Below are positions 2,631-23,640 of a DNA stretch of 64,000 nucleotides, one piece after another. The translations under genes and the position numbers were made by a program. Source of the stretch: a virus. Location: the IMG/VR virus record IMGVR_UViG_3300042471_000228, positions 1 through 64,000 of that record; one strand, 5' to 3'. Numbering within the stretch: position 1 is the first letter of the stretch; the number at the start of each line of letters is the position of its first letter. The notes under the pieces are model-generated. The model saw nothing but the letters and a program-made list of their open reading frames with translations. It did no database searches and had not been told where the DNA came from.

Positions 2631-2642
2631 ATACTAATATAA

Positions 2643-4650: not shown

Positions 4651-4925
4651 TTCTTACTAAGTAATATAATCTCACGTAAATCTCTGAGAGCTTGCGTGTT
4701 ATTGTCTAAAGCACTTTGTATCTTTCCAGTATCTGTTTTAATATAGTCATTAAGTTCTTTCTGCAAATCATCAACTTTCTTTTTCAAAGAATCTTCAGAT
4801 GCTATTTGACGCTTCAACATAAACCATAATACAGCTCCTAAACCTAGTACAATAACTCCAAGAGCTCCATACTGAGTTAGTGTTTCAAATACACCAAAAG
4901 ATGGTGCTGCTTGTAGTAATGTCAT
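4647..4925 (-). CDS. One-helix membrane protein, holin-like, tandem paralogue A
   Basis: The 92-residue protein begins M-T-L-L-Q-A-A-P-S-F-G-V-F-E-T-L-T-Q-Y-G-A-L-G. One transmembrane helix (about 21-39) is followed by a coiled coil. The first 50 residues align with the 58-residue protein encoded immediately upstream, so the two arose by tandem duplication. Its ATG shares bases with that gene's TGA (ATGA). A role as holin, antiholin or envelope tether is plausible from its place directly after the cell-wall enzyme gene, but it is not shown by sequence. Confidence 0.6.
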   Translation of the reverse strand: MTLLQAAPSFGVFETLTQYGALGVIVLGLGAVLWFMLKRQIASEDSLKKKVDDLQKELNDYIKTDTGKIQSALDNNTQALRDLREIILLSKK

Positions 4926-5098
4926 TTATCTTTTTCTTCTAGTTTACGACGTAGACGATCTTGTTCATCCATATTTCTTTTAATAAAGAACCATGCTAAT
5001 GCACCAAGTGCTAATGCTGCTAAACCTAAAGCACCATAGTTTGCTAACTGTTCAAATATTCCAAAACTAGGAACAGCTTGTTCTTGTAAGAGTACCAT
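4922..5098 (-). CDS. One-helix membrane protein, tandem paralogue B (58 residues)
   Basis: The frame runs from ATG 5098-5096 to TGA 4924-4922. The protein starts M-V-L-L-Q-E-Q-A-V-P-S-F-G-I-F-E-Q-L and shares P-S-F-G-[IV]-F-E-x-L-x-x-Y-G-A-L-G with the next gene. It has one transmembrane helix (about 22-39), then R-N-M-D-E-Q-D-R-L-R-R-K, a short charged coil. Compared with its paralogue it lacks the extended C-terminal coiled coil. Such long/short pairs are known for holin-antiholin systems, which is one possible reading. It is coupled to the next gene by an ATGA overlap and follows the cell-wall enzyme gene with a one-base gap. Confidence 0.65.
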   Translation of the reverse strand: MVLLQEQAVPSFGIFEQLANYGALGLAALALGALAWFFIKRNMDEQDRLRRKLEEKDK

Positions 5099-5099
5099 A

Positions 5100-5645
5100 T
5101 TAGAATTCTTTCAAAAGTGTATATGTAAACTTCTTGAACCCTGACTTTTTACACTTACTTAGTAACTCTGCAAATTGTTTTGGGTCGTTAAGAACTTGAC
5201 ATCCTGCAGACCATTTATCAATAAGTTTAGATACCATAGTAGGATTAGCACGGTGAATGTTGATACCAAAGATACCAGTCTCAGTTACTGAAGATTCTTC
5301 AGCTACGTCATTCTTGTTACCGTCTCTGAATACAGTTACAGGAGCACATTGTGTTAATGCTTCGTACTTACCTTGGTGCATACCAATCTGCCAACAGTCG
5401 TCCCATTGACCAGGTTTAAGTAACGCTGCACCTTTTGCATTCAACAAATTCTGCAACCAGTGAGTACCGGGGTTAGTAGTACAAGTGTACCAAGTAATAT
5501 TATCTTTTTCTATTACTGCAATAAGATCATCAAACTGATTCTTAAGATTAGCATTAGATCTGATACCTACAAGATGAAATGTAGGGAAATCATAACCGTG
5601 TTTTTTGAACTCTGCTTTAAGTTCGTCTATTGTATACTTTTTCAT
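5100..5645 (-). CDS. Putative cell-wall enzyme (YkuD-like H...SxGC pattern), lysis cassette
   Basis: The 181-residue protein has a conserved-looking core, with T-N-P-G-T-H-W-L-Q-N (about 56-67), F-G-I-N-I-H-R (His131) and K-W-S-A-G-C-Q-V (Ser146, Cys149). A His followed by S-x-G-C is the active-site pattern of YkuD-fold L,D-transpeptidases, and related phage proteins are commonly placed in lysis regions. No signal peptide is seen, so export would need a holin. It lies first in a cassette of holin- and spanin-like genes, which supports a role in degrading or remodelling peptidoglycan at the end of infection. Whether it hydrolyses or transfers cannot be decided here. The start is the only ATG that keeps the full N-terminal helix. 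Confidence 0.6.
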   Translation of the reverse strand: MKKYTIDELKAEFKKHGYDFPTFHLVGIRSNANLKNQFDDLIAVIEKDNITWYTCTTNPGTHWLQNLLNAKGAALLKPGQWDDCWQIGMHQGKYEALTQCAPVTVFRDGNKNDVAEESSVTETGIFGINIHRANPTMVSKLIDKWSAGCQVLNDPKQFAELLSKCKKSGFKKFTYTLLKEF

Positions 5646-5646
5646 G

Positions 5647-6141
5647 TTATAATAAATTAGGATAAACTCTAAATTCTAACCAAACAACTGTATTATATAT
5701 ACTATATAAAGGATTAGTAAATACTACTTGATACTGAGGAACTGTTTGAAAGCTAGAAGGTTCTATAGTACCAGATGCACCAGTTCCACTAAAACTTGTT
5801 AGAAGTGTGACATTTGTAAAATCTGCAATACTGACGTTATTTTTAAGTACAGTAATACTTGTAGTATAAGTGTCAGTACCAAAATCATAAACATTTGTTT
5901 TAAGAATGTTAAAGTCATTAAAATCTCCTTCTGCTAAATCACTATAAAAGACTTCATATGTTGCATAATTAGTATCTTCTGGATCTGATGTAATTTTCAA
6001 AATATAAGAGTAATACTCTTTTGTAGGAGTCTGATTTGACAGTTGATCATACAAAGCATTGACGTGACCATACCTAGCAACTTGAGAATCGCTAGGTTTA
6101 GAGAAGTACTTCTTAAAGTTGAATATGTCTATGAAAGCCAT
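5647..6141 (-). CDS. Fibre-like protein 1 with shared N-terminal anchor
   Basis: Residues 1-32 (M-A-F-I-D-I-F-N-F-K-K-Y-F...Q-V-A-R-Y-G-H-V-N-A-L-Y) are nearly identical to the start of the protein encoded just upstream. After this, the 164-residue protein changes to an unrelated Thr/Ser/Asn-rich, beta-strand-rich domain (E-P-S-S-F-Q-T-V-P-Q-Y-Q-V-V-F-T). A conserved N-terminus with divergent C-termini is usual for small phage appendage proteins, in which the N-terminus docks to the virion and the C-terminus faces outward. Its place after the giant virion proteins and before the lysis genes agrees. The role in host binding is inferred. Confidence 0.6.
   Translation of the reverse strand: MAFIDIFNFKKYFSKPSDSQVARYGHVNALYDQLSNQTPTKEYYSYILKITSDPEDTNYATYEVFYSDLAEGDFNDFNILKTNVYDFGTDTYTTSITVLKNNVSIADFTNVTLLTSFSGTGASGTIEPSSFQTVPQYQVVFTNPLYSIYNTVVWLEFRVYPNLL
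6046..6141 (-). repeat. Duplicated fibre anchor, copy 1
   Basis: These 96 bases encode the N-terminal 32 residues shared with 6446-6541. Similarity ends abruptly after A-L-Y, marking the boundary between anchor and variable domain. Confidence 0.8.
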
Positions 6142-6142
6142 C

Positions 6143-6541
6143 TTAGTTGATAATTAAATAGTTAAGAACTACATCTTCAGCGTCAATAGAATCATCATTA
6201 TGTAATACAATATGGACATCACCTGTTCCTGCAGATCTTGTTGTAGCAACTAATGCAGCATCATTTGAAGAACCAATTGTCAATAAAATAACTGAGCTTG
6301 GTAATATTTCTGTACTTGCTAAGTTGAAAGAAGCTCCACCCATATCAATATCACCTAAAAAAGTAATCACTCCAGCTTTTGTAGTTACAGTCAAATCTCC
6401 CTCAGTAATATCAAAATCATAAGAACCTACTGTAATCTTTAAATTTGTGTATAAAGCATTCACGTGTCCGTAACGTGCTACTTGTGAGTCACTTGGTTTA
6501 GCAAAGTATTTCTTGAAGTTAAAGATGTCGATAAAAGCCAT
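6143..6541 (-). CDS. Fibre-like protein 2 with shared N-terminal anchor
   Basis: The 132-residue protein has the same first 32 residues as its downstream neighbour except for a few substitutions. Its C-terminal part is different and beta-rich (V-G-S-Y-D-F-D-I-T-E-G-D-L-T-V-T-T) with Gly/Ser/Thr and Asp. That part resembles small trimeric fibre tips or decoration domains in composition only. It is separated from the next gene by one base, so the two are co-translated. Domain exchange behind a common anchor would explain the pair. Confidence 0.6.
   Translation of the reverse strand: MAFIDIFNFKKYFAKPSDSQVARYGHVNALYTNLKITVGSYDFDITEGDLTVTTKAGVITFLGDIDMGGASFNLASTEILPSSVILLTIGSSNDAALVATTRSAGTGDVHIVLHNDDSIDAEDVVLNYLIIN
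6446..6541 (-). repeat. Duplicated fibre anchor, copy 2
   Basis: This is the second copy of the 32-residue anchor. The DNA has diverged at many third codon positions while the protein is nearly unchanged, so the anchor is under selection rather than recently copied. Confidence 0.8.
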
Positions 6542-6589
6542 GATGTTTATTCTTAATAGTTTACATATATAATATACAAAAGATTTACA

Positions 6590-9500
6590 TCATTTGAAAC
6601 GATTTTGTGCACTTTCAAAGTTTTTAAGTGCGTTAACCGGATCAATGATTTTACCTGATAATCCCACAGATTTTAACAAGTAGTTAAGAGTTTTGTATTC
6701 TCCTTCTTGTTGCCACTCATATGGTCCAACTGCACGTTTGTATCGTGCACTAGGATCTTGTAACAATAACTGAGTGATTGCTTGTAAGGTTTTACCCATA
6801 TTAACAACCGTACTACTAACTGCTACAGAATCTAGCTTTAACATGTTGATATAATCATCATATCCAAACATAGGTGTCATAGCTTCAAGCTCGTTCATGG
6901 TTGTTTTACCCAGGAACAACGCTTGATTCTCTAACCAACCAGATGCATTAAACTCAAATGCAGAGTCTGCTACAAGGAATCCGGGTAATGGACCAGAATT
7001 CTCTCTGAGTTTAGCAAAACGATCTTCATCGTCATCATCGTAATCAAACAATAGACCTATTAAACCTGCACCTAATAGTATGATACCCATCTCGGTCATC
7101 ACCTTTTTAGCTGCTGCTATTTCCCTAGGAGTCATATATTTAAAGTCTGCACCTAGTGTAGTAATACCGCGTCTTAGTGTGTCAAGTGCTTGAACATAGT
7201 AACCAATAGTCATGTCATTTGCTTGTACATCCCAACGTGCTCCTGGATTTTTCCAGTTACCACGGAATCCCCATCTTGACATGAACTGACGAGTAAACCA
7301 CGTCTTCATATAAGCTACCATTCTATATAGAAGGTATCTATTTGCCATAGGTTGATCCATCTTTGAGAGTGATCCGTTCAAGTTTTTGTTAGCAGCTTGA
7401 ACTTTATTACGTACCTCTAAGAATTTCTTACCACCTACGTCCCAAGATTTGTCAATACCTTCTTTAAGAGTTAGTTGACCGTCTTTGATTTCCCAAGCGT
7501 CTATGTACGCTATCTCTCTAGATACACCATTGATAGTCTGATTAACCTTTTGGTGATTCATCATTCCACCAAATAACTGTAGTACCGAGTTTAGCTGTGT
7601 CCAAGATCTAAAGTTTGTAAACCATTGCATGTTAGCAACGTCACGTGTTAATGTGCGAGTAGCGCTTTCAGAAAACTTGCGTCCAGCATCTTTATCAAAA
7701 CGTGTTGCTTCAGGATCAAACATCTCTACTAACTGAACATTAAGTGACTTCGGTCCGAACTTATATATTTCAAATGATATCTGACTTGTTGCAAATTGTG
7801 CCCAATATGCACCTTTAGAAAGACTTGTTAGATCTAAATTATCACCACCAGCTGCAGCTATAACTGACTGGAACTGAGCGTTGAACGCGTTCTTCAATGC
7901 TGATGCTGCATCAAATGCAAAGAATGCAAACGATGACATCTTCATCAAGTTACCTGCGAGTTTGTTTGCCCATGCTAGATTTTCAGTAACACCGACTAGT
8001 TGTTTACCTTCTAGCTCCCGTTCAATCATAGCATTGATTACTTGTGACCTAACAGAACGTCCTTTACGTGTAGCAAAATTTGTAATACCTCTTGTCAAGT
8101 AGTCTTGTTTGTTAGCCGTCAACATATCTTTGATACCACCGACTTCATCATTAACTACTTTTTGGATTGCTCTTACATTAGGATTAATCTCAATAAGTTT
8201 CTTCTGACGCTCTGCTGATAACATATATCTCATCATACCCATGATGGTATCTTCAGATGTTTCTTCGATACTCAAGTCCGCTCTACCCATAATAGGGATA
8301 CCTGATACTTGAGAGTCAAACATATCAAGTGTTACATATGTTACCTGGTTTTCTGCATTATATCCTTCTTCATAATCATCCGCAGCTTTTGTAAATGATG
8401 CTTTGAAGTTTTTAATCATTGATGTTACTTTATCTTTAGCTTCACCAGATACTATTGATTCATAGTTATCTTTTCTAAATCTAGGTAAATAAACACCAAG
8501 TCTTGCATTCTTATTAAGACCTTCTTGATTCTGCTGATGATATAGATGTAAATTATTCAATAGATCAAACTGAGTTCTATTAGTTGTTTTTAATCTATAG
8601 TACTCATCATTTCTATACTTACTATCTGGTTTTGGTAACCATCTTCCTTGCTCATCGACTGTAGCTAGACTAACGTCTCCCATTTCAAGCGCTTCTTGGA
8701 ATGTAACACGTTTTGTTCTGTACTCATCTTTAAGCTGACGTCTCCAAAACTTGTTAGTTGGGACACCTGGAATTTGTTCTATTACGTTTCCTGCATCATC
8801 ATATAGATCTGTCTTCTCGTAGTACTCCTCACTATTAGGTCTTGTTACACTCCAAGCACTTGATCTCTTGTAAGATGTTTTTTCACTACCCTTGTTAGGA
8901 CCATACTCATATACAAAAGTTCTCTTTTGGTGATTTGCTGAGAACCATTTTTCAAACTCAGGACTCTCCGCAAATAGACTCTCTAGAAAAGGTATATCAT
9001 CTAATAGAGTATTTATGTTAGTACTATCAAATTCTCCTACACCCATTCTATTTCTCAAAGTACTTGGTTTGATACCAGTTCCGTCTGCTGCTGTTTTGAT
9101 AAATGAATTTACTTTAGTAATATACTGCTTAGTTGCAGTTCTACTTCTCAAAGCATTCAATTTCAAAAGTATATCAGAGACTGCTTCTTTAATTGTAGGA
9201 TCTCCTTCAGCACTTCCCATTGCATCTGTAATCTCATCATAGTATGCAGTATCGTCTGGATTAAGATCACGGAACTCATTGTAAAGTTCTGTGTACTGCT
9301 CCATGTCCATACTAAGAGGATCAAACTTTGATTCAACATACTCAGTTGCTTTTCTTGCAAACTCTTTTCTGAATTCTTCTTGTTCTTCAGTGATTCCTGT
9401 GTATGCTGCTAGTGATGCTCTTGCTGATGCAATTTTTTGATCAAGTTCTAAGATACGATCAAGTTTAGCTTCGCTCATAATCAACGCATCTGGTTGACCA

Positions 9501-12500
9501 TCTTCATCACGGAATGCACTCATTTGATCATTAAGTTCCTTAAACAATTCATCAAGATCCATTTGAGAAACCATATCTACAGGCATAGATCCTTTTAGAA
9601 CTTTTAATTGTTCAATAAGATCTTGAACGTCTTGCCAGAACTGAGGTTTAATTTTAACCTTTGTGTTGTTCTCAATCCACTCATTTCTCTTTTCATCAAA
9701 CTCTTTACCAGTGATACCTTGTACTCTAAGTTGTTCTTCATAAGATCTTAGTGATCCTTGGAACATACCTTTGATAGGAACCCACTCATAGAATTCTCTT
9801 GATGCTTCTCTGTGCTCGAGCAATCTTTTTGTAATCTCATAATCATCTGTACCCGGTTGTTTCAATGTACCATCGGGATATGAGTATGCATATAACTCAG
9901 CATATTCTTGCCAGTGTAAATCTCTCTCAGCTTGAAACTCACTGTCATACAAATCTGTTTTTTGTTTGATTGTAGCATCTAAGTTTCTAAGTTTGTTTAG
10001 AATATTCTGTCTAGCAATGTATGCTTTCTTACCAATTTCATCTTTTGTAAACAAAGCTTCTGATGCAAATACTCTAGAGTCATAATCGTTATAGAACTGT
10101 TCGTGTAATAACTTATTCAACTCTGCACGTAGTGCATCTGTTTCAGTGCTATCACCAGTCTCTACACGTTTCTTTTCTGCTTCTCGTATTTGATCTTGTA
10201 GTTTTCCGATCTCTGCTCTCCATCCTTTTAAGTGATGCAAGAACGCATGCCTTTCTCTTTCTACATAGTTACCTTCAGAATCATAGATAGGTTCTTTCTC
10301 TTTATAGGTAACCATCTTATGTAGAGCTTCGTAATCTTTTAATCCAAGTCCTGCATTTCGGAGCATTGGTTCAAGACTCATCAAAATACTATTCTGTCTT
10401 TGTTGTGCTTTAACTAGTACTTCACTAATATTATCGTTGATATATTTAGCTAAACCAAATACAACAGGATCCTGGATATTCATAAATGACTCTAACCATG
10501 CACTAATAGCATGTGTGTCACCACGTTGTCCAGATAACCACTCTCTAAGATCACCCTCATTCAAAGAAGCTTGTTTGTATTCTTCTTTATATCTATTTAG
10601 TAATCTTTCAGGTGCTCCTTTCTTCTCAAGTTCAGCAATAATCTTTTCGTAGTAGTCTTTTACTTTTGCTGTAAGAGGTTGTAGTGTTTCTTTCAACAAC
10701 GTAATCGATCCTTCAAAGCTCATCTGAACATCTAATTTCTTAGCAGTATTCAATAAGCTTTCTATGTTTCCTATTACGTCTACAACTGGACCAGTTACAA
10801 CATCCTCTCTAGTCATCTCACCTTTGATCCTTTCTATAATCTTAGACCAGTCTTCTACTAATTGATTATAATAGTAAAACTTCTTTACGTTCTCTGGACT
10901 ACTTTCTTCTTTCAACAGTTCTTTCATATGAAGCACCATCTTGGAGCTCATATACTTTATTCTATATAGAGAATTTACAAGAGCGGTTGCTCTCTGTGTT
11001 TCGTACTCTAGTCTTTGCGCAGCGTCTAGCATTCCATCCTCAAGTTCTTTTTGATACTGACTTAGGTTGCTAATAATACTTTTGTAATCAGACTCATCGT
11101 ATCCAGACTTAAGAATTTCTGCCATCTCTTTAAGATTGCGATTCTTTACAAGTCTATCTATGTGCTCTCTTGATATACGTGTTAGATCAGAGATCATTGA
11201 CTTGATTGCAATAGCTCCCGAGTCTGTGTTTCCGATATTCAAGAATGTATCTATCTCTTCTTTGACACGTCTCTCTTCCGCAATTACATCATCCTGACTT
11301 ACGGCTTCTATATCAAACGCAATTTGATCTGCGGATAATAACATCTTACTAAGATCATCTATTGTAGTATCTACATCTAGATTAGATACTTCTACTCTCT
11401 TACCAAAGTATTTTCTAAATGCTTGTTTAATTGCATATAGGATTCTACCAACTAAAGATTTGAACGCTTTGTTTTCTGTTGCCTCTAGTGCTCCTGTCAT
11501 TTTAAGTTTTGCAGCGCGAGTCAATGCTCTTACGATTGCTTCTTCTTTAAACAACGGATCTTCTTTACCATAGAGTTTCTCAGTTGTATCTAATACTTTT
11601 TGACCTTCTGCTGAAAGACTCAAGTCATTAAATAACTTCTCAAATAGTTCAGGGTTCTCTTGTTGGATTGCTCTAACAAACGGGTGACTAAATTCGTGAA
11701 TAGCTGTTTCTAGATTCAACTGTTCAGCTACTAAATATACTTTACCACCTACATAAAAACCTGCTTGATCGGTAAATGGTTTACCTGCATTCTCTAATAT
11801 TGTTCTAGCTTCATCAGCAGTTACAAACTCATATGGAACACTAAGTCTACTAGATAACTGTTGCACCATAGCTTGAACAAGACCATTTGCTTTTCTTACA
11901 TCTGTCTCTATAGGTGTGAGTTCTATCTTACTGGAATATGTACTAAGACCAGGTGTAGTCTCAATCATATCTGCGATCATATCATCTAAAGGTTGCTCTT
12001 GAGTAGTTTCAGAAGTTGAAACATCCTCCATAGCATAGTCTATAGATGATTCATAGTTAACGTGTCTAAATCCTGCATATCCAAAATTATAATTATCTTG
12101 TGATTGCATGTAGGGTATAAATGCTTTCCAATCAATGAAGTCTTTATCTCGACCCATCTTTATTTTAGCAAGCATAATTTCTTTCCATAACTTAAAATAG
12201 TTATCATGCTCTTCTTGGAAAGGAGTAAGTCGTATAAAGAAATCTACTTGATAACCTGTACCTTTTATATATTCTCCTTTTTCATGAAAAACTATTTTGG
12301 TACCTTTTTGCTTAACCGGTTTTTTAGTTACAGGATCTTTTGCGTAGTAATTATATTCTTCTTCATGTGTACCACTTGAGTCATAGAATTCTCCGTCTAT
12401 TACACCCTGTACGGTGATTGATTCAAAGTTAGTATGTTCTTTTCCATAGAAACCATTTGTCATTCTAAATGACGGAAAGTTTTCTTCAAACTGTCTAAAC

Positions 12501-13612
12501 CAAGTAAACTGAGCTACATGGTTCATTGTATTCTTTGCAACTTGTGATAGACCTTTTAGTCCAGCAACATCTTCTCTCTCTACATATGCTGGGACAATCA
12601 TATTGATCTTATCTAGTATATGCATGTTTCTAGCATTACTGCTTTCTTCATACGGTACTACAAAATCTATATCATGTAAAGTTTCTTCTGCATTTCTAAA
12701 TACAGTTCCTGCTCTTCTTAAAGCTAATGATCCTGTCAAAACTAAACCTAATGATTTAGAAACATCCACAATGCTTTTTGCTTTCTCATCAGATTCAATT
12801 GTATCTTTATAATACTTTCTAATCTGATCATCTGCTAAACCGTAATCATAATACTCATAGTTTTGAGTAAGTACTTCATCAGCAATTGCTAAACCTAAAT
12901 TCTCAAGATCCGCTCTGCGTTCTTCATTTCCAATACCAAAATTGATATTCAACCAGTTCTTTATTGCTCTTATGAATTTTTCCCAAAGAGTAAAATCTTC
13001 ACTTGTCCATTTAGTATCAAGATTCTTTTTAAAGTCTGTAGGATTCTTGTAGTAAGATAATAGATTCTCCTTTAAGAAATCTATAATAACACGATCTTTT
13101 ACATTGTCTTTTCTTTCTGCATCATTAAACTTAGCTTTACCCAATCGTTTATTAAGTATAGCTCTATGGAAAGAACTTCTTTCTTTATACTTACTCCACT
13201 TACTAACTAGATATCTTAATTCTGATTTAATTTTATTGTTCTGTTTACCTAGCATCATATATGCAAAGTATGCTACTTCAGGAAGAATAGATTCTCCTTC
13301 ATTATATACAATTCTTTTGGTAATTAAATCAGATGCTGTAAAGGCATCAATACCCAAGTCGTCTTTTATAGATTGGTATTCTTCAACACTTATATTAAAG
13401 TCTTTTAGGAAACCTTCCACTAAGATCTTTTCTAAATCCGCTATCTTACTGTTTACAACAGGTTTAGATTTTAGAAAGTTCTTTTCTGCTAAAACTACTT
13501 TAGGGTCACGAATGGTTTCTCCGTTCTCAATATAATCTCTGTAAGCTTCAAATTCACCTACAGCTTTAACTAATTTGTTCCATTCTGGTCCCCCTGGACA
13601 TGCGTTTATCAT
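6590..13612 (-). CDS. Giant virion protein with nucleotidyltransferase and zincin domains
   Basis: The 2340-residue protein has a Pol-beta-type nucleotidyltransferase domain at about residues 280-500. Its parts are G294-S295 in T-G-S-L-A-L-R-R-A-G, D314-x-D316 in H-D-I-D-F-V-V, a third Asp at D457 in Y-Q-V-D-F-F, and then A-K-I-K-M-G-R-D-K-D-F-I-D (about 482-493), a hallmark of MNT/AbiEii-type enzymes. A zincin metallopeptidase motif H-E-F-S-H follows (H639, E640, H643), with a likely third ligand in K-E-E-A-I-V-R-A-L. The middle is long charged coiled coil (about 750-1500). The C-terminal part has hydrophobic helices (about 1885-1925 and 2174-2190) and a D-Y-D-D-D-D-E-D tract. It is expected to be carried in the virion and ejected. 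The start overlaps the polymerase stop as TAATG. The domain calls are from motifs; host targets are unknown. Confidence 0.8.
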   Translation of the reverse strand: MINACPGGPEWNKLVKAVGEFEAYRDYIENGETIRDPKVVLAEKNFLKSKPVVNSKIADLEKILVEGFLKDFNISVEEYQSIKDDLGIDAFTASDLITKRIVYNEGESILPEVAYFAYMMLGKQNNKIKSELRYLVSKWSKYKERSSFHRAILNKRLGKAKFNDAERKDNVKDRVIIDFLKENLLSYYKNPTDFKKNLDTKWTSEDFTLWEKFIRAIKNWLNINFGIGNEERRADLENLGLAIADEVLTQNYEYYDYGLADDQIRKYYKDTIESDEKAKSIVDVSKSLGLVLTGSLALRRAGTVFRNAEETLHDIDFVVPYEESSNARNMHILDKINMIVPAYVEREDVAGLKGLSQVAKNTMNHVAQFTWFRQFEENFPSFRMTNGFYGKEHTNFESITVQGVIDGEFYDSSGTHEEEYNYYAKDPVTKKPVKQKGTKIVFHEKGEYIKGTGYQVDFFIRLTPFQEEHDNYFKLWKEIMLAKIKMGRDKDFIDWKAFIPYMQSQDNYNFGYAGFRHVNYESSIDYAMEDVSTSETTQEQPLDDMIADMIETTPGLSTYSSKIELTPIETDVRKANGLVQAMVQQLSSRLSVPYEFVTADEARTILENAGKPFTDQAGFYVGGKVYLVAEQLNLETAIHEFSHPFVRAIQQENPELFEKLFNDLSLSAEGQKVLDTTEKLYGKEDPLFKEEAIVRALTRAAKLKMTGALEATENKAFKSLVGRILYAIKQAFRKYFGKRVEVSNLDVDTTIDDLSKMLLSADQIAFDIEAVSQDDVIAEERRVKEEIDTFLNIGNTDSGAIAIKSMISDLTRISREHIDRLVKNRNLKEMAEILKSGYDESDYKSIISNLSQYQKELEDGMLDAAQRLEYETQRATALVNSLYRIKYMSSKMVLHMKELLKEESSPENVKKFYYYNQLVEDWSKIIERIKGEMTREDVVTGPVVDVIGNIESLLNTAKKLDVQMSFEGSITLLKETLQPLTAKVKDYYEKIIAELEKKGAPERLLNRYKEEYKQASLNEGDLREWLSGQRGDTHAISAWLESFMNIQDPVVFGLAKYINDNISEVLVKAQQRQNSILMSLEPMLRNAGLGLKDYEALHKMVTYKEKEPIYDSEGNYVERERHAFLHHLKGWRAEIGKLQDQIREAEKKRVETGDSTETDALRAELNKLLHEQFYNDYDSRVFASEALFTKDEIGKKAYIARQNILNKLRNLDATIKQKTDLYDSEFQAERDLHWQEYAELYAYSYPDGTLKQPGTDDYEITKRLLEHREASREFYEWVPIKGMFQGSLRSYEEQLRVQGITGKEFDEKRNEWIENNTKVKIKPQFWQDVQDLIEQLKVLKGSMPVDMVSQMDLDELFKELNDQMSAFRDEDGQPDALIMSEAKLDRILELDQKIASARASLAAYTGITEEQEEFRKEFARKATEYVESKFDPLSMDMEQYTELYNEFRDLNPDDTAYYDEITDAMGSAEGDPTIKEAVSDILLKLNALRSRTATKQYITKVNSFIKTAADGTGIKPSTLRNRMGVGEFDSTNINTLLDDIPFLESLFAESPEFEKWFSANHQKRTFVYEYGPNKGSEKTSYKRSSAWSVTRPNSEEYYEKTDLYDDAGNVIEQIPGVPTNKFWRRQLKDEYRTKRVTFQEALEMGDVSLATVDEQGRWLPKPDSKYRNDEYYRLKTTNRTQFDLLNNLHLYHQQNQEGLNKNARLGVYLPRFRKDNYESIVSGEAKDKVTSMIKNFKASFTKAADDYEEGYNAENQVTYVTLDMFDSQVSGIPIMGRADLSIEETSEDTIMGMMRYMLSAERQKKLIEINPNVRAIQKVVNDEVGGIKDMLTANKQDYLTRGITNFATRKGRSVRSQVINAMIERELEGKQLVGVTENLAWANKLAGNLMKMSSFAFFAFDAASALKNAFNAQFQSVIAAAGGDNLDLTSLSKGAYWAQFATSQISFEIYKFGPKSLNVQLVEMFDPEATRFDKDAGRKFSESATRTLTRDVANMQWFTNFRSWTQLNSVLQLFGGMMNHQKVNQTINGVSREIAYIDAWEIKDGQLTLKEGIDKSWDVGGKKFLEVRNKVQAANKNLNGSLSKMDQPMANRYLLYRMVAYMKTWFTRQFMSRWGFRGNWKNPGARWDVQANDMTIGYYVQALDTLRRGITTLGADFKYMTPREIAAAKKVMTEMGIILLGAGLIGLLFDYDDDDEDRFAKLRENSGPLPGFLVADSAFEFNASGWLENQALFLGKTTMNELEAMTPMFGYDDYINMLKLDSVAVSSTVVNMGKTLQAITQLLLQDPSARYKRAVGPYEWQQEGEYKTLNYLLKSVGLSGKIIDPVNALKNFESAQNRFK

Positions 13613-16600
13613 TATGAAATACCTTTACATTTATTAATATAATCACTAACTTCTTTGTCTGTTTTGCGCTGGATATCTTTTGACTTATAGTATTCTTGTA
13701 TGAATTCTAATCCAGTACCCATTCCTCCAAGTTCTTCTGTATTAAAGTTCTTTGTTATCAATTCAAACTTAGGATTTCTGTATCCGAAGTTCTCAAGAAG
13801 TTGTCTAGACAAATATAAGTACAAGTCTGTATTCCTCTCAGCATTTTCTCTTAAAGAAATACTACCCATGTTATTTCTATAGAACCCTAATAACTTAGCA
13901 CCTATACCATTTGATGGAAATACAACTGTCTTACCACTTTCTTTTAAAGCAACTAGTTCTTTAATATACTGATCTATGAGATCTTTAGCTACCGCATTTC
14001 CTTTAGGATTTGGTAGAGAACCATCTTTCTTCACTACAGGTATTGCGAAACTGTTTCCAGTAGCTAATCCTGCACGGAATGCTTGTTGATCTATCTGAGT
14101 AGGTGTTGTTGGTCTATCTCCTACAATAACATTACCTTCTGAGTCTAGTTTAACAGTAGGATATACATCTTCGAATACATATACTGCTTCAGGATTAGCA
14201 TCGAACATAGCTTGTACTGTCTCAGGAGTAACTTTGTATTCTGTTTTAGTATAGATTTGTTCGTCTCTTCCTGTAAAACTCTTAGAAGTTTCAAACATGC
14301 TTTCGTTATACTGATATACAGCTTCTATCTCACCAGTGTCTTCGTTAAGAAATACACTACTAGTCTTTACTTTAGACTGAGATACTACTATAGGTATAGT
14401 ACTCTTTGCAACTGTTGGGGCAGCCGCTGCATAGTTTGTATATACAAACCTTCCACGAGTTCTATAACTTCTAATAAACTTCTCACTAAAGTCAGAAAGT
14501 TCTTTTTCAATATCAGATCCATCCGCAATCTTCTTTACATCAGATGCCATATATGCTGCAAGATCTTTGTTATCAAAGATTGACATCATATATAGATTAG
14601 ATAGTTTATTGTTTCCTGCTTGCAAATACGCTATGGTTTTCATCTTAGCAAAGAAGTTACTTATATACAAGTTCTCTTCGTCATTCTTTACTTTTTGAAC
14701 AGCAGGATTCGCTAAGTCATTCATCTGATTCTTATACGATGTAAGAATAGTTCCATCAGAATTACGATCATTTAGTTTAAAGAAGCGCATGGTTCCGCTA
14801 GATGCTACACCAATGATATCAAGAACCGGATATGATTTTGCAAGATCAGGATGTGACTCTAGAATATCAGTAAACTTAGCAGTAGCATTTATAATACCGT
14901 TTCCTACAGTATAACTAGCATCAAATAGAGCTCCGTCTATATACAAATTCTCGAGAGCTTTGTTTCTAATAAACTCTTCATAGCGAGCTGGTATATCTGT
15001 ATTTAATTGTCTCTGAGTCAAGAACTTAATAAACTCAAAATTACTTGTTATAGTCTCATAAGGTATTGCTGCGCGTAAGTATTCTCTTTCAAGAACAAAC
15101 TTATAATACATAGGTATTTGTTTGTCTTTAGATAATCTTGAGAATGTAGACTCTGGGAGTTTCGCTAGCTTTACTTGACCACCGTATCCATCTTTAGAGA
15201 ACGCACGTGACTTAAAGTCTTTTATAATCTGTGCTTTATCTACTAAGAACTCTCCTGTTTCTGGATCTAAAAATGCTCCGTACTTTAAGAAAGCTTGTTC
15301 TTTAATAGGTACTGTGTCATTAAGTTCTATAGATCTATACGTGTCTTTGCTAGAATCAAATGTATATAACTTATTTTGGAACAAGTATAATATGAAGTCG
15401 TCATTGAATTCTTTAGCAAAGTCTTCTATCTCCTCTGGATCTAAAGACTGATCTGATATAACAGCATCTAATGTATTATTTAATTGAGTGTTTGCTCTTA
15501 CTGGAAGTGCTGTTGCAATAGCTGCTCTTAGCAAGTCAGTAGTTCTGAAACTCTTTAGTACTGTTTTATCAAGAAGTCTTTCGATAACATCTTTTGAAAA
15601 CGCACCGTCTAAAATTTTATACAAACCTCTTTCTTGTTTCTGTGCATCAAAGTAACTAGTGTTCTTTAATGTATCAAAACGAATTGCCATCTTCAACTCA
15701 GTAAGTTTGCTCGCCATATAGATTATCTCTACAAAGTGCGCAAACTGTTGTTCGTTAAAAGCTGCATTAGATTTCTTTAGATTTTCTTTTAGATTCTCAA
15801 ATGTAAATATTGGTTCTCTATCAACATCTTGTTCAAAATCTAAGAAGCTATTTCTTAGATTAACCAACATCTGAGGAGTATTGATAAACGTATTAGGATC
15901 TCCTTCTTTGTTTACAGGAAACACACCGGGCATTTCTTTATCTAAGATAACTTGTATGATAGCTTGTCTCTTCGCAAAGTTTGTATTAGATAATTCTATC
16001 TCAGGATTCAATACAGAATAAGGACTAGAGTATTCTCTGAAGTATCTCAAATACTCTCTTACGTATGGTTGTGCTAACATCAATGCTGCTACTTTTACAG
16101 GAACACCTGCGAGCATCATAAATTCAAACTCTGGTTCTAATTGCTTAATAGCATTGATAGAATACACCCAGTCTTTCTTAGCAACGTCCAAGTATCCGTT
16201 CATCAATTCTGATACAACGTCTCTTACGTACTTATCAAGATCCGCATCTTTGAAGCTAGAGAAATCTATTTCTTTTTGACCATTAATTATTTTAGAGTTA
16301 TGTGGTACTAATAGTTCTTGAGTTAGAGTATACGTAACTGGTTTTCTCTTTACAAGTTTAGTCTCTTCTCTTACAGGACTCATTGTGGTTCCTGAAAGTG
16401 TAGCTAAAGCATGGAAAGTATTACCAGTTGCTAACATACCAACACCTTGCTTACCATTATTAAGTGCAGAAGCTTTGACAATGTTATAACGGTTTTCGAA
16501 GATCTTAGTTGGAGACATCTTCTTACCATTTAACGGATTAGTCTTAGTAGACTTACTATTGTATTCTCTGTTATATGGATCTAAAGCATCAACAATACTC

Positions 16601-19600
16601 TTATCATCAATTACTGGATCTTCTGTATAGATATTAGTACCATTAGGTCTAACAAGGTTGATATAGTTATCAGGTCTGCTGAGAATGTTTTTCATAGAAT
16701 CCATTACATCCTGTTGGAATGCTTTAGGATTGTATGAGTTTTGCTCTCTGTTTAACTCTCTAAGTTTTTGTTTGAGCGGTGCTATCTCGTTTATATACTG
16801 ATCAAACTCACCTTTTCTAGTCTCGAGTATGTCTTTCTCTAGTTGATCATATATTTCATCAATTTGTTCTTTAGCACTATTAATACGACTATAATACTTC
16901 TCACTAGCTCCACCTACATAATAGTTGTTAGTCCATTGAGACAAGAAATCTTTATAAGCATCTACCTGTTCTTGTTCAAGTTTTGTAATCTCTTCTTGAA
17001 ACTCGGGCTTCAGATACTGTTTGATATACTTCTTACGTAATTCCTTAATCTCTTTTAAGGTCTCTGCTTTCTGCTCAAGAATTGTGTTAAGAAGTTTTTT
17101 AGTTGCTTTTGGTTTCTCAATCTCAATAACACCTTCGTTATCTACGATACCGGGAACCATTGTAATTAACTTATCGATATCAAAGTCACCACCTGATTTA
17201 GCTACAATCTCTAAAGGTAGGATCATAATATTACCTGCTATCTCTGGTAAGAACTCAAACACTTCCATGAACTCCATAGAGTTAGGACCTTGAGTTGGGA
17301 TACGTGCTCCTATAAGAGTAACCATCTTACGATGATCTCCTTTATCTAACCACGTATCTTCTTTAAGCATTGCGTTCAAGCGATCAAGTGTTCCGATAGC
17401 TTTTCCGTCTAAGTGTTCTAGTTTCAAAAGATTCTTAAACTTACCGTGCAAGCTTATCTTAATCTTCATTGCAGAAGCGCTCTTTTTATCACCATTAAAT
17501 TTATAGAATGGTAATCCATCAGAACCGTATTTGATCAAATCATCTACAGTAGGTTTAGAGAACTTCTCAAATCCTACACCTGAACCTTGAATATATTGCT
17601 CTCCGTATACAGGTTGTTCATTAATTCTTTTGTTTACAATAGAACTAATAATCTTTTCAATCTTACCGGGATCAGATGACAGATCCAATGGATATACAAA
17701 TTTACCATCATCACCTATAGTAATGAAATCTATATCTTGTTCTGCTAGATCTTGTGCTGTTAAACTATTTTGAATATACTCAACAAACTTCTGTAGATTA
17801 ATAGAAGGTTCTCCTTTACGTCTTGATTTAGGATCGTTGTAACCAAGTTCCATTTTCAATTCGTTCTCGGCAACTTTCTGCATCTTATCTATATTAGATA
17901 AATAAGATTTTACCAACGGACTGTCTTCAGTCAAACCAATAGTAATCAGTTTACGAATCTGTGTTGGGAATTTGATTTTCTCCTTAAACTTATCCTTTGT
18001 AACCAACTGTTCTTTAAGATAGTTTACGAAAATAAAATTCTTTGTAAAGTTAAACTCATCACTTTCCCATTTAGGAGAAAGATCATCTGTATAGAATCCG
18101 TCAAGTTCTTTCTCAGAACCTAGAGATGCTACTTTAGAACCAGAGTGAGTTACCGCATATGCTAATCCTTGAGATATAAGTTTATTATGTAATGACTCTA
18201 AACGTGTTTGTTTAATCACACTAGGAATAAGTGGAATCAAAGAGTATTTATGAAACGCATTAGCTGCAAAGTTCTGTAATCTAATTGGTCCAGAGTACTG
18301 TAGTTTCTTTACAGGCATAAATGCTTTTAGTGCTACAGCATCATCCACTTGTTCTCCATTAAGAATCTTATTGTATAGTTCTTCTTTATATGGTGACCAG
18401 TTATTAAAACGTAACTCAAGTGCTCTATACGCATCGAATGTAATCCATGATTGTGCATCTGCAACTTTCATGTTCTTATACTCATTGAAATCACTCTCAG
18501 CTAAACCTGCTTTCTTAGCAGCTGCAATCATCTCATTTAAGTATACAGATGTTACTCTAGGATCTTCTACTACAGCAACTGGTATAATAGTAGATTGACT
18601 TGCCATTGTATTTGTTGGCTCAGGATATCCTGAATTCTTAAACCATGGTGACTCGTGATATCTACCTTTGTTTTTTTCAATGAAAGTATTCATTGATCTA
18701 TCTGTTCTACCAATTCTACCAGTAGCAAAGAAACCGGGAATACGCTTCATGTGTTCTTCTTTGTCGTGGAAGAACAAAGCAGGATCTCCGTAAGTTAAAG
18801 TACCTAACTCAATCCTGTGTATAAAACTGTTGTATGTAAATGCTTCGGATGTTACTTTCAATAATGTATCATTATTTGAGTTTGTCATACCAAGTCTACT
18901 CTTTACAACATCAAAGAAACCAGTAGCTTTAGTAACACCATAGTTTTTTAACTGAGTATAATCTTCTAAAGCTAACTTATCAAAGTAGTCATTCAGATCT
19001 TTAATAATTCTTTCTTGTAGTTCAGGTCTCTCAACTAATAAAGCTTGAAACTCTTCTACAGTATTTACGTCAAGTCCTTTTAAGGTTTCTTTTAGATCAT
19101 TTTTAAGGATGTCATCAAATATTACAAACTCAGAACCCGCGCTTTGATATGTTATCTGCTTACCAGGAGAACCCCCGGTAAGAATAATGTCACTAGCATT
19201 TTCTCCAACAGCATTCTTTGTATTTACTTTCTTGATTCTCTCAAGTTCTGATGCTACGTATCCAAGTAAGATTTTATTAGCTTGTTCTCTTCCTGCGTTT
19301 CCTGAGAAATTTTTAGGATTAACATAGTAAAGAGTCTTACCTGCAACAGCTCTAACAATATACGCAGATGTTTTATCAGCATGTCTAAATGCTTCTGATG
19401 CACCGTGTAATATATTTAACATGTAATCTCTAAGATATGCAGTCTGCTCATCGGATGCAGATGACTTCATACCTTTTATGATACCAACTATTTCGTTATC
19501 GATAACATCAACAGCTTGTGTTCCTAATAGAGACTCTACTGACAATTCTATTTTCTGACCATCTGCTGTATTTTTATATCCTAAGTTATTACCAAATAAT

Positions 19601-22600
19601 AACTTAAATAATCTAGATGTCTTTACAAATGGATTTCTATCAGTGCTGTAGTGCTCTGTCTCGGGATTATTTATTAACTCTGCAAAAGTGTTTGCGTTAT
19701 TAATATAGTGTATCTGATTACCTGCAGTACTAGGATTGTTCATCTCAGACTGAGGATCACCATTTACGTTAGTAAACATGTAACCAGCATTGAATCCTGA
19801 GAACTTACTTTCTAGTTCTAATAATCTACTCCATAGTTTATTTTGATCATAGAATAGATGATTGGGATTTTCTGGAGATAAACCTACAACTTGTTTCTTA
19901 GTTGCAACTTTGCTAACAACTAAAGCATCAAACATATCACGTAACAAACCTTTGTTAAGCTCGTTAACAATACGAAGGTTATCTGTAATATCAATACCCA
20001 ATGACTGTAAGAACTTCAGAGGTTGTGCGCGAACTGTCTGAATATCAGGAAAGTCTTCGTACAGCTTAGCAAGATCTAGAACATATTCATTAGTCTTTCT
20101 ATCTTTAGTGATGTAGTCTGATTGAACACGTCCTGTTTGGAAACGTTGGTTCAACATTCTTCCGAATGCTTTATCTGCAGAGTCTGATTCTCCTACAACA
20201 ACTCGTACTCCATCAAATGAATCTTCTTCAGTAATCGCTGAATGTTTTTGTACAGTTACTTGTACTCCAGATTGTTTATCTAATCTAGCAGCAAAGAAGA
20301 ATTCACCCCAAAGTCTTTGAGTAATAAAGTTATTTGCTGAATCAGGATTACCTAGTTTAGATACTAATTGCTTTAAGAATTCAAACTTATAGTTTGTTTT
20401 ACCATTCTTAGTTTTAGTATTTGAAGATAGTATAAGATTGTCATACATCTCTTCAGGTGTAAGAGTATTGTTAGTACTAGATATGATTACTGCAAATGCT
20501 GTATCAAAAGGTACAGTTTGCCTAAATCCTAAATCATTATATACAAATCCATCAGCTGTCTTTTCAAATAATGAGTTTAGTATAAATACCATACTATCAC
20601 CCATTCTATCTTTTGCAGAAAACTCAGTACCACTTCCAGCAAACATACCTTCTCTATCCGCCATCAAATCAGGATCTATATCAGATTGACCAGCTACAGT
20701 CATATCTTCATCCATGATTTTAGCATCTAGTTTGATATCAAAGAATCCAGTTCTTTCATTATAGTACTTTAAGAATCCTTGATTAGGTTTATCTACATCA
20801 AATTGACTAGTCACCCACTCTAAGGTTTGTATTGATCTCTCAAGTTTTTCTTTCTCAAATCCTACAGCGTTATCACTCTTTAGTTTTAACTCAGTAATTT
20901 TATTAATGAATTTTAATTTTGCTTCTGTTAGAATAGCATTCTTAATCTTCTCATCAGAGAATACACCTAGTGTAAATTTATTAGTTCCTGTTTTAGCATT
21001 GAACTCATCAATTGTACTAGATATAGCATCTGTCAATCCATCGACTGCCATTAGTGATGCTGTTACATTCAAAGTCTTAATGGGACTAGTGCTATCAGCT
21101 AATGCTGGTATACCGCTATTAAGTCTATTAAACTGAATGTTAGATTGATCGAAACTATAGTTCGTTAAGTCACCTGCTCTAAGTTTTTGGAATACTTCTC
21201 CAATACGCATACCAGGTGTTAACTGGTCTTCTGGTGTAGAGAATCCAAATAATGCTTTAATAGCATCTAGTATAATTCTAAATATAGACTTCTGCTTTGC
21301 TGTCTTCGGTGTATACTTACCTAATGAGAACTCTCTGAACTTTTCAGCAAGATGTTCTTCTGCGTATAATATATGCTCTGGTTTATTAAAATCTAAATCA
21401 GAACTCTTCATGGTTTTCCAACCATTGTCATAATACGATATAGTTTCACCAAGAGACTTGAGGTCATTATATAAATCTAATTTCTGTTTACCAGTTAAGA
21501 ACAACTGTGTAAACCCGTGCCATGCTTCATGGTAAAGATCTGAGTAATCAGATCCTTGGAACAAAGTAATTCCTGCTCTTGTCCATGTAGCTCTAACATC
21601 ACCATTACTATTAGCAATGTTAAACATTGTAGTATAAGGTATGACCTCAGATAGTTTCTTTCTAACCACTTTACCTGTAGAGTCAGTAAAACTAATCTCA
21701 GTGTTTTCAAACCAAGTCTTAGCTTCAGCAACTTGTGTAGGTGTTGCTACTATATCAAAACCAGTCATGTCTCTTCTTTCAAGAAGATTACTTAATTCTG
21801 ATATATCTGTGTCAGTTAATCCTTCTAACTTAACTGTCTTGTTTTTTTGTTTCTCTTCTTGTTCTTTTTTAAATGCAGCTATCTCAGCATCTGTCATTTT
21901 TTTAGAAGCGATGATTGAACTCTCGATAGGTATAGTGAATCCTATGTAAGCATTTTCTTCTCTGATCTCTCCTTTGACCACTTTAACGCCAGACGTTGCG
22001 TTCTTAAAAACCCAATCTTTATAAGGACTCTGTTCTATAGATATATCTAATCCTTCTTTTGTAGGAGTTAACTTAAAATCATAGATATTACCATCTATGT
22101 TTTTAGCACTATAATAAAGTTTATTTTTGTAGGTAACGGTTTCATTATTACCAACTGTGTCTTTAATCTCTCTAGTTAAGAAATCTACAATCTGTTTCTT
22201 AGCTACTTCTTTATCCGCACTTACTGGCTCTCCATTAATACGTACAGTGTTTGTAGCAAGATCATAAGTAAAGTTCTTGCCGATATCTAGTTTTATATAC
22301 TGAGATATAATCTGACCTTTTGACTTAGGAGATAGTAATTCATTTTCATAGAATACATCATTAAGTAATAAGTCAGCAGTTCTTTCAGCAAGATCTGTAG
22401 GAAGCTCATTCATTACAAAAGGAACAGGTTCTGATACACCTGGATACATGAAAGCAGTCTTTACCTCACCTTTTGCTTCAGTAGAAGTTATAATAATGGG
22501 ATCGAATGCAGACGCATCCATTAATTCTGATAGAGGTTTTTTATTATTAAACTCTCTATACAAGAACCCATGAGTCGCGTAGTTAAAGTTTAATTTCAAT

Positions 22601-23640
22601 CTTTTTTTGAAATTACCCTTTGTAGTTAGATACTCCATCATTGTATATAGAGTATCGTACTCGTTGTTTATTTGATCACGTAATGCTTCTTCTGTAATAG
22701 TAATACCTTGTCTTTGTTTACTTTTAATAATAGAACCTAGTGGTTGAATCTTACTATTCTTAATACTTTCGTTTATATCAAATATGCGCTTACCATTCTC
22801 GACAGTAAAACTTGGTATAGTTCTTAAAGGAAAATAAATTATATCTCCTGTGTCATCAGTTAGATTATAATCATTATCAAAGTATACAAGCTCTCCTTCA
22901 GGATTAGTAAATACAATATACATTTGCTTAGATATTCTAAGCTTGATATTTTCTTTGTCTCTCTCATATGGGTATAGTTTATCTTGTGGTAAACTGTATC
23001 CCGGAGTAAGCATGATTTGAATTTTCTGACCTCTGTAGAAGATAGTACCATCTTCATCGGGTAACATCTGTGTGTTAAGTAACTTTATAAAGTTATAATA
23101 CCAACGTAGGTCACGCTCTTCTCTTACTTCTTCCCCTGATGTAGTTAATACGTTGTCGGGTACTTGTACGAATCCTCCTTCAGATGCAATATCATTTACT
23201 GTATCTTTTATTCTAGGTTGAATAGAAACAACACTATTTACTTCTTTAACAGTGTCTTGTACTTTAGGTGTTAGAGTACTTCTGTAATCGTTTAAGTACT
23301 TAGTTACATTATCTATGGACTTATTAAAAGATATAATAACATCTTCTAGTGATCCTGGATCTAGTAACTTCTTCTCTCTTAAGGGTACGCGGATGCTTTC
23401 ATAAACACTCTTAGCTAATTCAATAGAACTAGGAGTAAGTCTAGCAACAGCTAATGCTTTTTGTTGGTCTCCAGTTTTCTCTAGCACCTCATTAAAGATA
23501 CCATTTATAAACTTTGGTAGGTCGACAACAGAATTCTTCTCAATTTTTTGAGCAAGCATTCCTGCTACTTTTCTATCAATTTTTGAGATATCTTCTTTAG
23601 ATAAACTCCATTCCCCTGAAGGATCACAAATTATACTCAT
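13612..23640 (-). CDS. Giant virion RNA polymerase of crAss-like type, with zincin domain
   Basis: The 3342-residue protein carries the catalytic loop K-S-G-G-D-F-D-I-D-K with D2152, D2154 and D2156. The loop is preceded by G-A-R-I-P-T-Q-G-P-N-S-M and followed by G-K-Q-G-V-G-M at about residue 2395. This is the two-double-psi-barrel arrangement of crAss-like virion RNA polymerases, related to YonO and eukaryotic RNA-dependent RNA polymerases; the three Asp bind catalytic Mg2+. Its role is to enter the cell with the DNA and transcribe early genes. A separate metallopeptidase motif H-E-A-W-H (H704, E705, H708) lies in the N-terminal third, with E-E-H-L-A-E-K-F as a candidate third ligand region and an amphipathic I-F-R-I-I-L-D-A-I-K-A-L-F-G-F helix after it. 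The polymerase and peptidase may be separated by processing. It is much longer than the roughly 2200-residue phi14:2 enzyme. Confidence 0.87.
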   Translation of the reverse strand: MSIICDPSGEWSLSKEDISKIDRKVAGMLAQKIEKNSVVDLPKFINGIFNEVLEKTGDQQKALAVARLTPSSIELAKSVYESIRVPLREKKLLDPGSLEDVIISFNKSIDNVTKYLNDYRSTLTPKVQDTVKEVNSVVSIQPRIKDTVNDIASEGGFVQVPDNVLTTSGEEVREERDLRWYYNFIKLLNTQMLPDEDGTIFYRGQKIQIMLTPGYSLPQDKLYPYERDKENIKLRISKQMYIVFTNPEGELVYFDNDYNLTDDTGDIIYFPLRTIPSFTVENGKRIFDINESIKNSKIQPLGSIIKSKQRQGITITEEALRDQINNEYDTLYTMMEYLTTKGNFKKRLKLNFNYATHGFLYREFNNKKPLSELMDASAFDPIIITSTEAKGEVKTAFMYPGVSEPVPFVMNELPTDLAERTADLLLNDVFYENELLSPKSKGQIISQYIKLDIGKNFTYDLATNTVRINGEPVSADKEVAKKQIVDFLTREIKDTVGNNETVTYKNKLYYSAKNIDGNIYDFKLTPTKEGLDISIEQSPYKDWVFKNATSGVKVVKGEIREENAYIGFTIPIESSIIASKKMTDAEIAAFKKEQEEKQKNKTVKLEGLTDTDISELSNLLERRDMTGFDIVATPTQVAEAKTWFENTEISFTDSTGKVVRKKLSEVIPYTTMFNIANSNGDVRATWTRAGITLFQGSDYSDLYHEAWHGFTQLFLTGKQKLDLYNDLKSLGETISYYDNGWKTMKSSDLDFNKPEHILYAEEHLAEKFREFSLGKYTPKTAKQKSIFRIILDAIKALFGFSTPEDQLTPGMRIGEVFQKLRAGDLTNYSFDQSNIQFNRLNSGIPALADSTSPIKTLNVTASLMAVDGLTDAISSTIDEFNAKTGTNKFTLGVFSDEKIKNAILTEAKLKFINKITELKLKSDNAVGFEKEKLERSIQTLEWVTSQFDVDKPNQGFLKYYNERTGFFDIKLDAKIMDEDMTVAGQSDIDPDLMADREGMFAGSGTEFSAKDRMGDSMVFILNSLFEKTADGFVYNDLGFRQTVPFDTAFAVIISSTNNTLTPEEMYDNLILSSNTKTKNGKTNYKFEFLKQLVSKLGNPDSANNFITQRLWGEFFFAARLDKQSGVQVTVQKHSAITEEDSFDGVRVVVGESDSADKAFGRMLNQRFQTGRVQSDYITKDRKTNEYVLDLAKLYEDFPDIQTVRAQPLKFLQSLGIDITDNLRIVNELNKGLLRDMFDALVVSKVATKKQVVGLSPENPNHLFYDQNKLWSRLLELESKFSGFNAGYMFTNVNGDPQSEMNNPSTAGNQIHYINNANTFAELINNPETEHYSTDRNPFVKTSRLFKLLFGNNLGYKNTADGQKIELSVESLLGTQAVDVIDNEIVGIIKGMKSSASDEQTAYLRDYMLNILHGASEAFRHADKTSAYIVRAVAGKTLYYVNPKNFSGNAGREQANKILLGYVASELERIKKVNTKNAVGENASDIILTGGSPGKQITYQSAGSEFVIFDDILKNDLKETLKGLDVNTVEEFQALLVERPELQERIIKDLNDYFDKLALEDYTQLKNYGVTKATGFFDVVKSRLGMTNSNNDTLLKVTSEAFTYNSFIHRIELGTLTYGDPALFFHDKEEHMKRIPGFFATGRIGRTDRSMNTFIEKNKGRYHESPWFKNSGYPEPTNTMASQSTIIPVAVVEDPRVTSVYLNEMIAAAKKAGLAESDFNEYKNMKVADAQSWITFDAYRALELRFNNWSPYKEELYNKILNGEQVDDAVALKAFMPVKKLQYSGPIRLQNFAANAFHKYSLIPLIPSVIKQTRLESLHNKLISQGLAYAVTHSGSKVASLGSEKELDGFYTDDLSPKWESDEFNFTKNFIFVNYLKEQLVTKDKFKEKIKFPTQIRKLITIGLTEDSPLVKSYLSNIDKMQKVAENELKMELGYNDPKSRRKGEPSINLQKFVEYIQNSLTAQDLAEQDIDFITIGDDGKFVYPLDLSSDPGKIEKIISSIVNKRINEQPVYGEQYIQGSGVGFEKFSKPTVDDLIKYGSDGLPFYKFNGDKKSASAMKIKISLHGKFKNLLKLEHLDGKAIGTLDRLNAMLKEDTWLDKGDHRKMVTLIGARIPTQGPNSMEFMEVFEFLPEIAGNIMILPLEIVAKSGGDFDIDKLITMVPGIVDNEGVIEIEKPKATKKLLNTILEQKAETLKEIKELRKKYIKQYLKPEFQEEITKLEQEQVDAYKDFLSQWTNNYYVGGASEKYYSRINSAKEQIDEIYDQLEKDILETRKGEFDQYINEIAPLKQKLRELNREQNSYNPKAFQQDVMDSMKNILSRPDNYINLVRPNGTNIYTEDPVIDDKSIVDALDPYNREYNSKSTKTNPLNGKKMSPTKIFENRYNIVKASALNNGKQGVGMLATGNTFHALATLSGTTMSPVREETKLVKRKPVTYTLTQELLVPHNSKIINGQKEIDFSSFKDADLDKYVRDVVSELMNGYLDVAKKDWVYSINAIKQLEPEFEFMMLAGVPVKVAALMLAQPYVREYLRYFREYSSPYSVLNPEIELSNTNFAKRQAIIQVILDKEMPGVFPVNKEGDPNTFINTPQMLVNLRNSFLDFEQDVDREPIFTFENLKENLKKSNAAFNEQQFAHFVEIIYMASKLTELKMAIRFDTLKNTSYFDAQKQERGLYKILDGAFSKDVIERLLDKTVLKSFRTTDLLRAAIATALPVRANTQLNNTLDAVISDQSLDPEEIEDFAKEFNDDFILYLFQNKLYTFDSSKDTYRSIELNDTVPIKEQAFLKYGAFLDPETGEFLVDKAQIIKDFKSRAFSKDGYGGQVKLAKLPESTFSRLSKDKQIPMYYKFVLEREYLRAAIPYETITSNFEFIKFLTQRQLNTDIPARYEEFIRNKALENLYIDGALFDASYTVGNGIINATAKFTDILESHPDLAKSYPVLDIIGVASSGTMRFFKLNDRNSDGTILTSYKNQMNDLANPAVQKVKNDEENLYISNFFAKMKTIAYLQAGNNKLSNLYMMSIFDNKDLAAYMASDVKKIADGSDIEKELSDFSEKFIRSYRTRGRFVYTNYAAAAPTVAKSTIPIVVSQSKVKTSSVFLNEDTGEIEAVYQYNESMFETSKSFTGRDEQIYTKTEYKVTPETVQAMFDANPEAVYVFEDVYPTVKLDSEGNVIVGDRPTTPTQIDQQAFRAGLATGNSFAIPVVKKDGSLPNPKGNAVAKDLIDQYIKELVALKESGKTVVFPSNGIGAKLLGFYRNNMGSISLRENAERNTDLYLYLSRQLLENFGYRNPKFELITKNFNTEELGGMGTGLEFIQEYYKSKDIQRKTDKEVSDYINKCKGIS

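Follow-up and report, generated by a model that had tools for sequence, protein, structure and literature searches.

A putative nucleotidyltransferase module on a gp49-type virion RNA polymerase cargo protein of crAss-like phages

A giant protein encoded by a viral genome carries, within an N-terminal extension, a domain (NT) that very probably belongs to the nucleotidyltransferase (NTase) superfamily, an assignment made by sequence rather than by fold. We propose, with a probability of roughly 0.6, that this domain is part of an active, exchangeable effector module on a gp49-type subunit of the virion RNA polymerase (vRNAP), which would be ejected early and would transfer NMP to a host molecule. 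The source is the 92.5-kb IMG/VR virus record IMGVR_UViG_3300042471_000228, positions 1 to 64,000 of which constitute the stretch of 64,000 nucleotides analyzed here (hereafter the window). The features of the locus, with the basis for each, are as follows.

6590..13612, minus strand (13612 to 6590): NT-bearing giant protein of 2340 aa, RNAP-associated cargo of the gp49 type that is extended at its N terminus (ORF and gp49 match).
12908..13447, minus strand: companion domain, helical, residues 56-235, typically preceding NT (hmmsearch of NT-bearing proteins).
12023..12907, minus strand: NT domain, residues 236-530 (51-sequence alignment, AlphaFold2, DUF6036 profile match).
12728..12733, minus strand: motif I, G294-S295 (conserved 51/51).
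12665..12673, minus strand: motif II, D314-I-D316, the putative metal-binding pair (conserved 51/51).
12242..12244, minus strand: D457, the putative third catalytic acid (50/50 where covered; on a predicted strand).
12131..12166, minus strand: K483 and R488-D-K-D-F-I-D494, counterpart of AbiEii motifs III and IV (+DxxD) (conservation).
11995..13497, minus strand: swappable segment, residues ~39-540 (replaced in L001; 97.2-97.3% DNA identity in the flanks and none inside).
11213..11935, minus strand: zincin-like metallopeptidase region, HEFSH at residues 639-643 (HExxH motif; aligns to the EEFAH region of crAss001 gp49).
6593..11170, minus strand: gp49-like RNAP-associated body, limits approximate (match to crAss001 gp49).
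13612..23640, minus strand: neighboring vRNAP, 3342 aa (DFDID, HEAWH, gp50 profile match).

The N-terminal extension thus comprises a leader of 35-55 residues followed by the companion domain, NT, and the zincin-like region. A sequence-only reading of this DNA had named G-S (294-295), D314/D316, D457, and an RDKDFID signature (R488-D494), and all of these occur exactly at the quoted residues of the 2340-aa protein. Conservation of the three Asp in homologs had been named beforehand as a test, and they are kept in every homolog that covers those positions. Among 51 aligned relatives (alignment A6; 21-60% identity to the window domain), G294, S295, R299, G302, R306, E310, H313, D314, and D316 were invariant (51/51), D457, K483, R488, K490, and D491 were present in 50/50 of the sequences covering them, and D494 in 49/49. 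Degenerate DNA patterns for GS...DxD (GS...HDxD) and for K..GRxKDxxD (AK..MGRxKDxxD) each matched the window once, with 0 matches expected in shuffles; as judged from sequence, the named motifs are not chance occurrences. A short motif alone would not be evidence, because a loose G[SG]...DxD expression matched four further places in the large proteins of the window. As measured against a related locus (L002), NT is under purifying selection yet evolving more quickly than the remainder of the protein (dN 0.35 and dS ~2.0, the latter near saturation, for NT; dN 0.20 outside NT).

Searches of Pfam, PHROGs, NCBIfam, PADLOC, and PDB sequences with the protein and with alignments returned nothing credible for NT, and Pfam matched none of the 51 family members. 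Astro_capsid and DUF matches were dismissed as chance. Profile-profile comparison with families drawn from genomes identified DUF6036 (PF19502), a group of NTases to which no function is assigned, as the best match (probability 93%, P = 3.2e-7, aligned over 140 columns that begin at the GS helix and reach GRxKDxxD). The score of 54.3 compares with a mean of 11.5 and a maximum of 19.0 for 197 column-shuffled DUF6036 alignments, and the significance varies with the sequences compared (P = 3e-4 for a cleaned DUF6036 set; 1e-3 to 2e-3 when NT is represented by the window subfamily alone). The match to AbiEii was weak (score 22.3, with a maximum of 16.2 in 98 shuffles; hhalign P = 0.02) and that to NTP_transf_2 was the weakest among NTases (P = 0.036). 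As a yardstick, AbiEii against DUF6036 scored 62.5 (P = 1.2e-8) and a HEPN decoy gave P = 0.63; reversed, HEPN, and N-terminal controls in the NT comparison were null. These comparisons place NT in the Pol-beta superfamily on the AbiEii/DUF6036 side. The earlier claim of a Pol-beta-type NTase domain is supported by the DUF6036 match together with the catalytic Asp retained in all covering homologs. The more specific attribution to the MNT (NTP_transf_2) type is not upheld, given the different spacing, a closest profile that is DUF6036/AbiEii-like, and the failure of PF05168 to detect a HEPN domain in the companion.

An AlphaFold2 model of NT (pLDDT 84, pTM 0.82) has the element order helix-strand-GS helix-strand(DxD)-...-strand(D457)-K helix-KDxxD helix. 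In this model, a short strand precedes the helix that opens with GS; DxD sits on the next strand, D457 on a later one (219-226 in model numbering), K483 in the helix after that, and KDxxD in the last helix. Comparison of the predicted fold gave a divided answer: the model is confident and its strand order is compatible with Pol-beta, but Foldseek returned no NTase among the matches listed (best E 0.12 in PDB and 0.034 in BFVD). An earlier AlphaFold model built from 10 sequences was poor (pLDDT 63), and its Foldseek search was uninformative.

AbiEii/DUF1814 (PF08843), which includes the MenT tRNA-nucleotidyltransferase toxins, resembles NT in the order of its elements (hG[GS], R, DhD, third acid, K..R, and +DxxD) and in its C-terminal helix pair. 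All AbiEii residue classes that are essential by mutagenesis (G, R, DxD, K, R, and +DxxD; PMC3985639) have counterparts in NT. NT differs from AbiEii in falling below Pfam detection, in the position of the R (8 residues before DxD rather than 4), in a K-x4-R (K483-x4-R488) instead of a K-x6-R arrangement, in the extra invariant E310 and H313, and in its phage virion context without an antitoxin (AbiEi) gene; the three genes downstream gave no AbiEi match and the upstream neighbor is the vRNAP. The sequence-only reading was correct about motif order but not about spacing, which is GSx18DxD in NT, longer than the GSx10DxD of MntA (PMC7641770) and than the x9-13 of Pol-beta and x15 of AbiEii (PMC3985639). 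MntA also has a HEPN partner, of which PF05168 gave no sign in the NT companion domain. DUF6036 proteins are small (~150-190 aa) and chromosomal, have GG instead of GS, and share no giant-protein context with NT. Among the closest characterized relatives, MenT modifies tRNA and MntA modifies a toxin protein (PMC7641770).

The body downstream of NT matched crAss001 gp49 (E = 5.9e-45; hhalign 99.3%, P = 2.7e-20; reversed control P = 0.09), and the upstream neighbor matched crAss001 gp50 (profile E = 3.4e-39), with tblastn also recovering annotated crAss RNAP genes. This neighbor carries the vRNAP motif DFDID (residues 2152-2156; window 17173-17187), and HEAWH occurs at residue 704. The window thus shares with crAss001 a gp49-like body, a gp50-like vRNAP upstream, and the same gene order (PMC10172136). 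Since the body is homologous to gp49 whereas crAss001 gp49 (1349 aa) lacks NT and the companion domain, the window protein is best described as a cargo subunit of the gp49 type that has been extended at its N terminus. Virions of crAss001 contain gp47, gp49, and gp50 by mass spectrometry, and these are described as RNA-polymerase-associated cargo (PMC10172136). As a homolog of gp49, the window protein is very probably packaged in the virion, in agreement with its earlier description as a giant ejected protein; from the same homology, we infer that the NT-bearing protein would be delivered with the DNA. Its claimed position beside the virion RNA polymerase was borne out by immediate adjacency in the window and by covalent fusion in some relatives. 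In all 26 contigs whose available DNA includes the vRNAP ORF, the NT gene adjoins it, lies within one small gene of it, or shares its ORF (26 of 67 NT contigs; the other 41 mostly have flanks that are too short). NT is absent from crAss001 gp47, gp49, and gp50 and from ctcc615, and NT as a universal part of the crAss RNAP was rejected on these grounds.

The module appears to be exchanged as a cassette. In a related phage (L001) that is 97.2-97.3% identical in DNA on either side, window positions 13497-11995 are swapped in frame for an unrelated 3.1-kb module of ~1030 aa, which lies in protein P0002 and carries its own HEYAH motif; NT was not found elsewhere in the 42.9-kb L001 record. The vRNAP genes of the two phages differ as well, with about 835 bp, open in frame, in L001 (4971-5805) versus 44 bp in the window (15851-15807), a second in-gene module difference between these 97%-identical phages.

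Several other architectures were observed. In five loci (L005, L007, L008, L014, and L019) NT stands as a gene of its own, flanked by the upstream giant gene on one side and the gp49-like gene on the other, and another clade encodes free-standing NT proteins of 580-599 aa. In L092 and L106 one polypeptide carries both NT and the vRNAP DFDID motif, and in L071 NT, a HEYAH zincin motif, and the DFDID RNAP motif share one 1803-aa (incomplete) ORF. A 3096-aa protein in L098 (reverse strand ORF, 1495-10782) has two NT domains, both of which keep GS, DxD, the third D, and GRxKDxxD. In most of the family NT is preceded by the companion domain, as judged by hmmsearch (E down to 1e-86 in close relatives, and between about 1e-20 and 1e-5 in many of the divergent ones). 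Its identification as a HEPN domain was not supported by PF05168, the one HEPN profile tried (P = 0.22). In L003 (8433-8435) and also L004, the NT-bearing gene has an in-frame TGA where relatives have Trp, identical in two assemblies; the neighboring long ORFs are free of in-frame TGA, so that this is one recoded, read-through, or broken codon.

Elsewhere in the window, a 2258-aa protein (39455-46231) with a PG_binding_1 domain (8e-8), a weak Phage_lysozyme match, and a HEIAH motif is possible wall-degrading cargo. A 1068-aa protein (56364-59570) has a von Willebrand A domain and a weak sortilin/BNR-type match, and a gene at 1435-2100 encodes a GIY-YIG-type homing endonuclease.

A whole-protein search of IMG/VR recovered eight related loci, to which an alignment search added a few. 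Two independent IMG/VR searches, one using just the C-terminal motif and the other just the N-terminal motif, recovered largely one and the same family, and nearly all matches to the N-terminal motif score as homologs across the whole NT domain. In total, NT was identified on 67 distinct contigs, comprising 66 viral contigs and one from a metagenome-assembled genome (MAG). The latter was the single genuine match in a search of genome contigs; this 6-kb sequence (L118; NZBH01000026.1) had been assigned to a MAG labeled archaeon and is probably a mis-binned phage contig. No homolog was detected in 395 genomes of one bacterial phylum, in a search that was run without a positive control, and tblastn of four different NT domains against named phages and plasmids gave no match. 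What appears to be new is the NT family itself, its restriction to phages across the searched collections, and its link with the RNAP cargo of crAss-like phages.

The polyvalent proteins surveyed in 2017 (PMC5512222) offer a precedent in that a Pol-beta NTase occurs with a zincin-like peptidase in a large, multidomain, injected protein. The window protein likewise combines several unrelated domains, as is characteristic of polyvalent proteins, namely NT, the zincin-like region, and the gp49-like body. The zincin-like region is assigned by its HEFSH motif only and has no Pfam match. Pol-beta NTases in that survey were confined to polyvalent proteins of conjugative elements, where they are fused to ArdC and are four-stranded and NTox45-like (PMC5512222); NT differs from these in belonging to another family and in residing in the RNAP cargo of crAss-like phages.

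Other roles for NT can be considered against these observations. That NT is an inactive, merely NTase-like domain kept for packaging or structure would fit the lack of a database family match and of an NTase among the Foldseek matches listed, but exactly the catalytic set is strictly conserved down to 21% identity and the profile match to NTases is significant, which makes this reading highly improbable. Nearly as improbable is a role within the transcription machine, in which NT would act on vRNAP transcripts or subunits (primer making, 3' tailing, or self-nucleotidylation) rather than on the host. The constant adjacency to the vRNAP and the fusions in L092, L106, and L071 speak for such a role; however, NT is not needed for the polymerase, because it is absent from the crAss001 proteins and ctcc615 and is replaced in L001.

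Jumbo phages commonly encode Pol-beta NTases for RNA repair (PMC7824862), and NT might accordingly re-add nucleotides to tRNAs cut by host anti-phage nucleases, as do phage RlaP or CCA-adding enzymes. We regard this as quite unlikely, since the neighbors examined include no RNA ligase or kinase, NT has no profile match to RlaP or CCA enzymes, and repair enzymes are usually later-expressed soluble gene products rather than virion cargo. A further possibility is an anti-defense AMPylator that, like MntA, silences a host toxin or defense protein (e.g., a HEPN RNase) before the phage genome is expressed: NT and MntA have superfamily and chemistry in common (PMC7641770), NT would be delivered first, and both the module swap and the faster change of NT fit an arms race. 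Nonetheless, the GSx18DxD spacing departs from that of MntA, NTP_transf_2 is the weakest of the NTase profile matches, and HEPN was not found in the companion domain with PF05168, and we consider this specific role unlikely.

The favored reading is that of an exchangeable effector module, spanning residues ~39-540 and consisting of the helical companion and an active Pol-beta-superfamily NTase of the AbiEii/DUF6036 side. The module is attached to the gp49-type subunit of the vRNAP complex; the protein would be packed in the capsid and leave it together with the vRNAP, before the DNA does. NT may be cut loose by the zincin-like region on its C-terminal side, as Iyer et al. propose for the release of polyvalent proteins (PMC5512222). 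Once inside the cell, as infection begins and phage transcription has yet to become established, NT would transfer NMP from NTP to a molecule of the host. By analogy with the characterized relatives, the most likely class of target is a host tRNA (as for MenT) or a host defense protein (as for MntA). A fuller version, with odds that we place slightly below even, is that NT represents a phage-restricted family of virion-packaged NTases that are coupled mechanically to the crAss-like vRNAP, nucleotidylate host tRNA or protein in the first minutes, and are exchanged as cassettes between near-identical phages.

The free-standing natural versions of NT, of about 525-600 aa, could be produced on their own, and the window and L001 constitute a natural near-isogenic pair that differs by the module. 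One giant crAss-like cargo protein thereby gains a testable predicted enzymatic activity with named catalytic residues. These results would also extend Pol-beta NTases to injected proteins of the phage type, in which the main polyvalent-protein survey (PMC5512222, 2017) had found none. If the fuller version is true, NT would represent a new class of injected phage effector.
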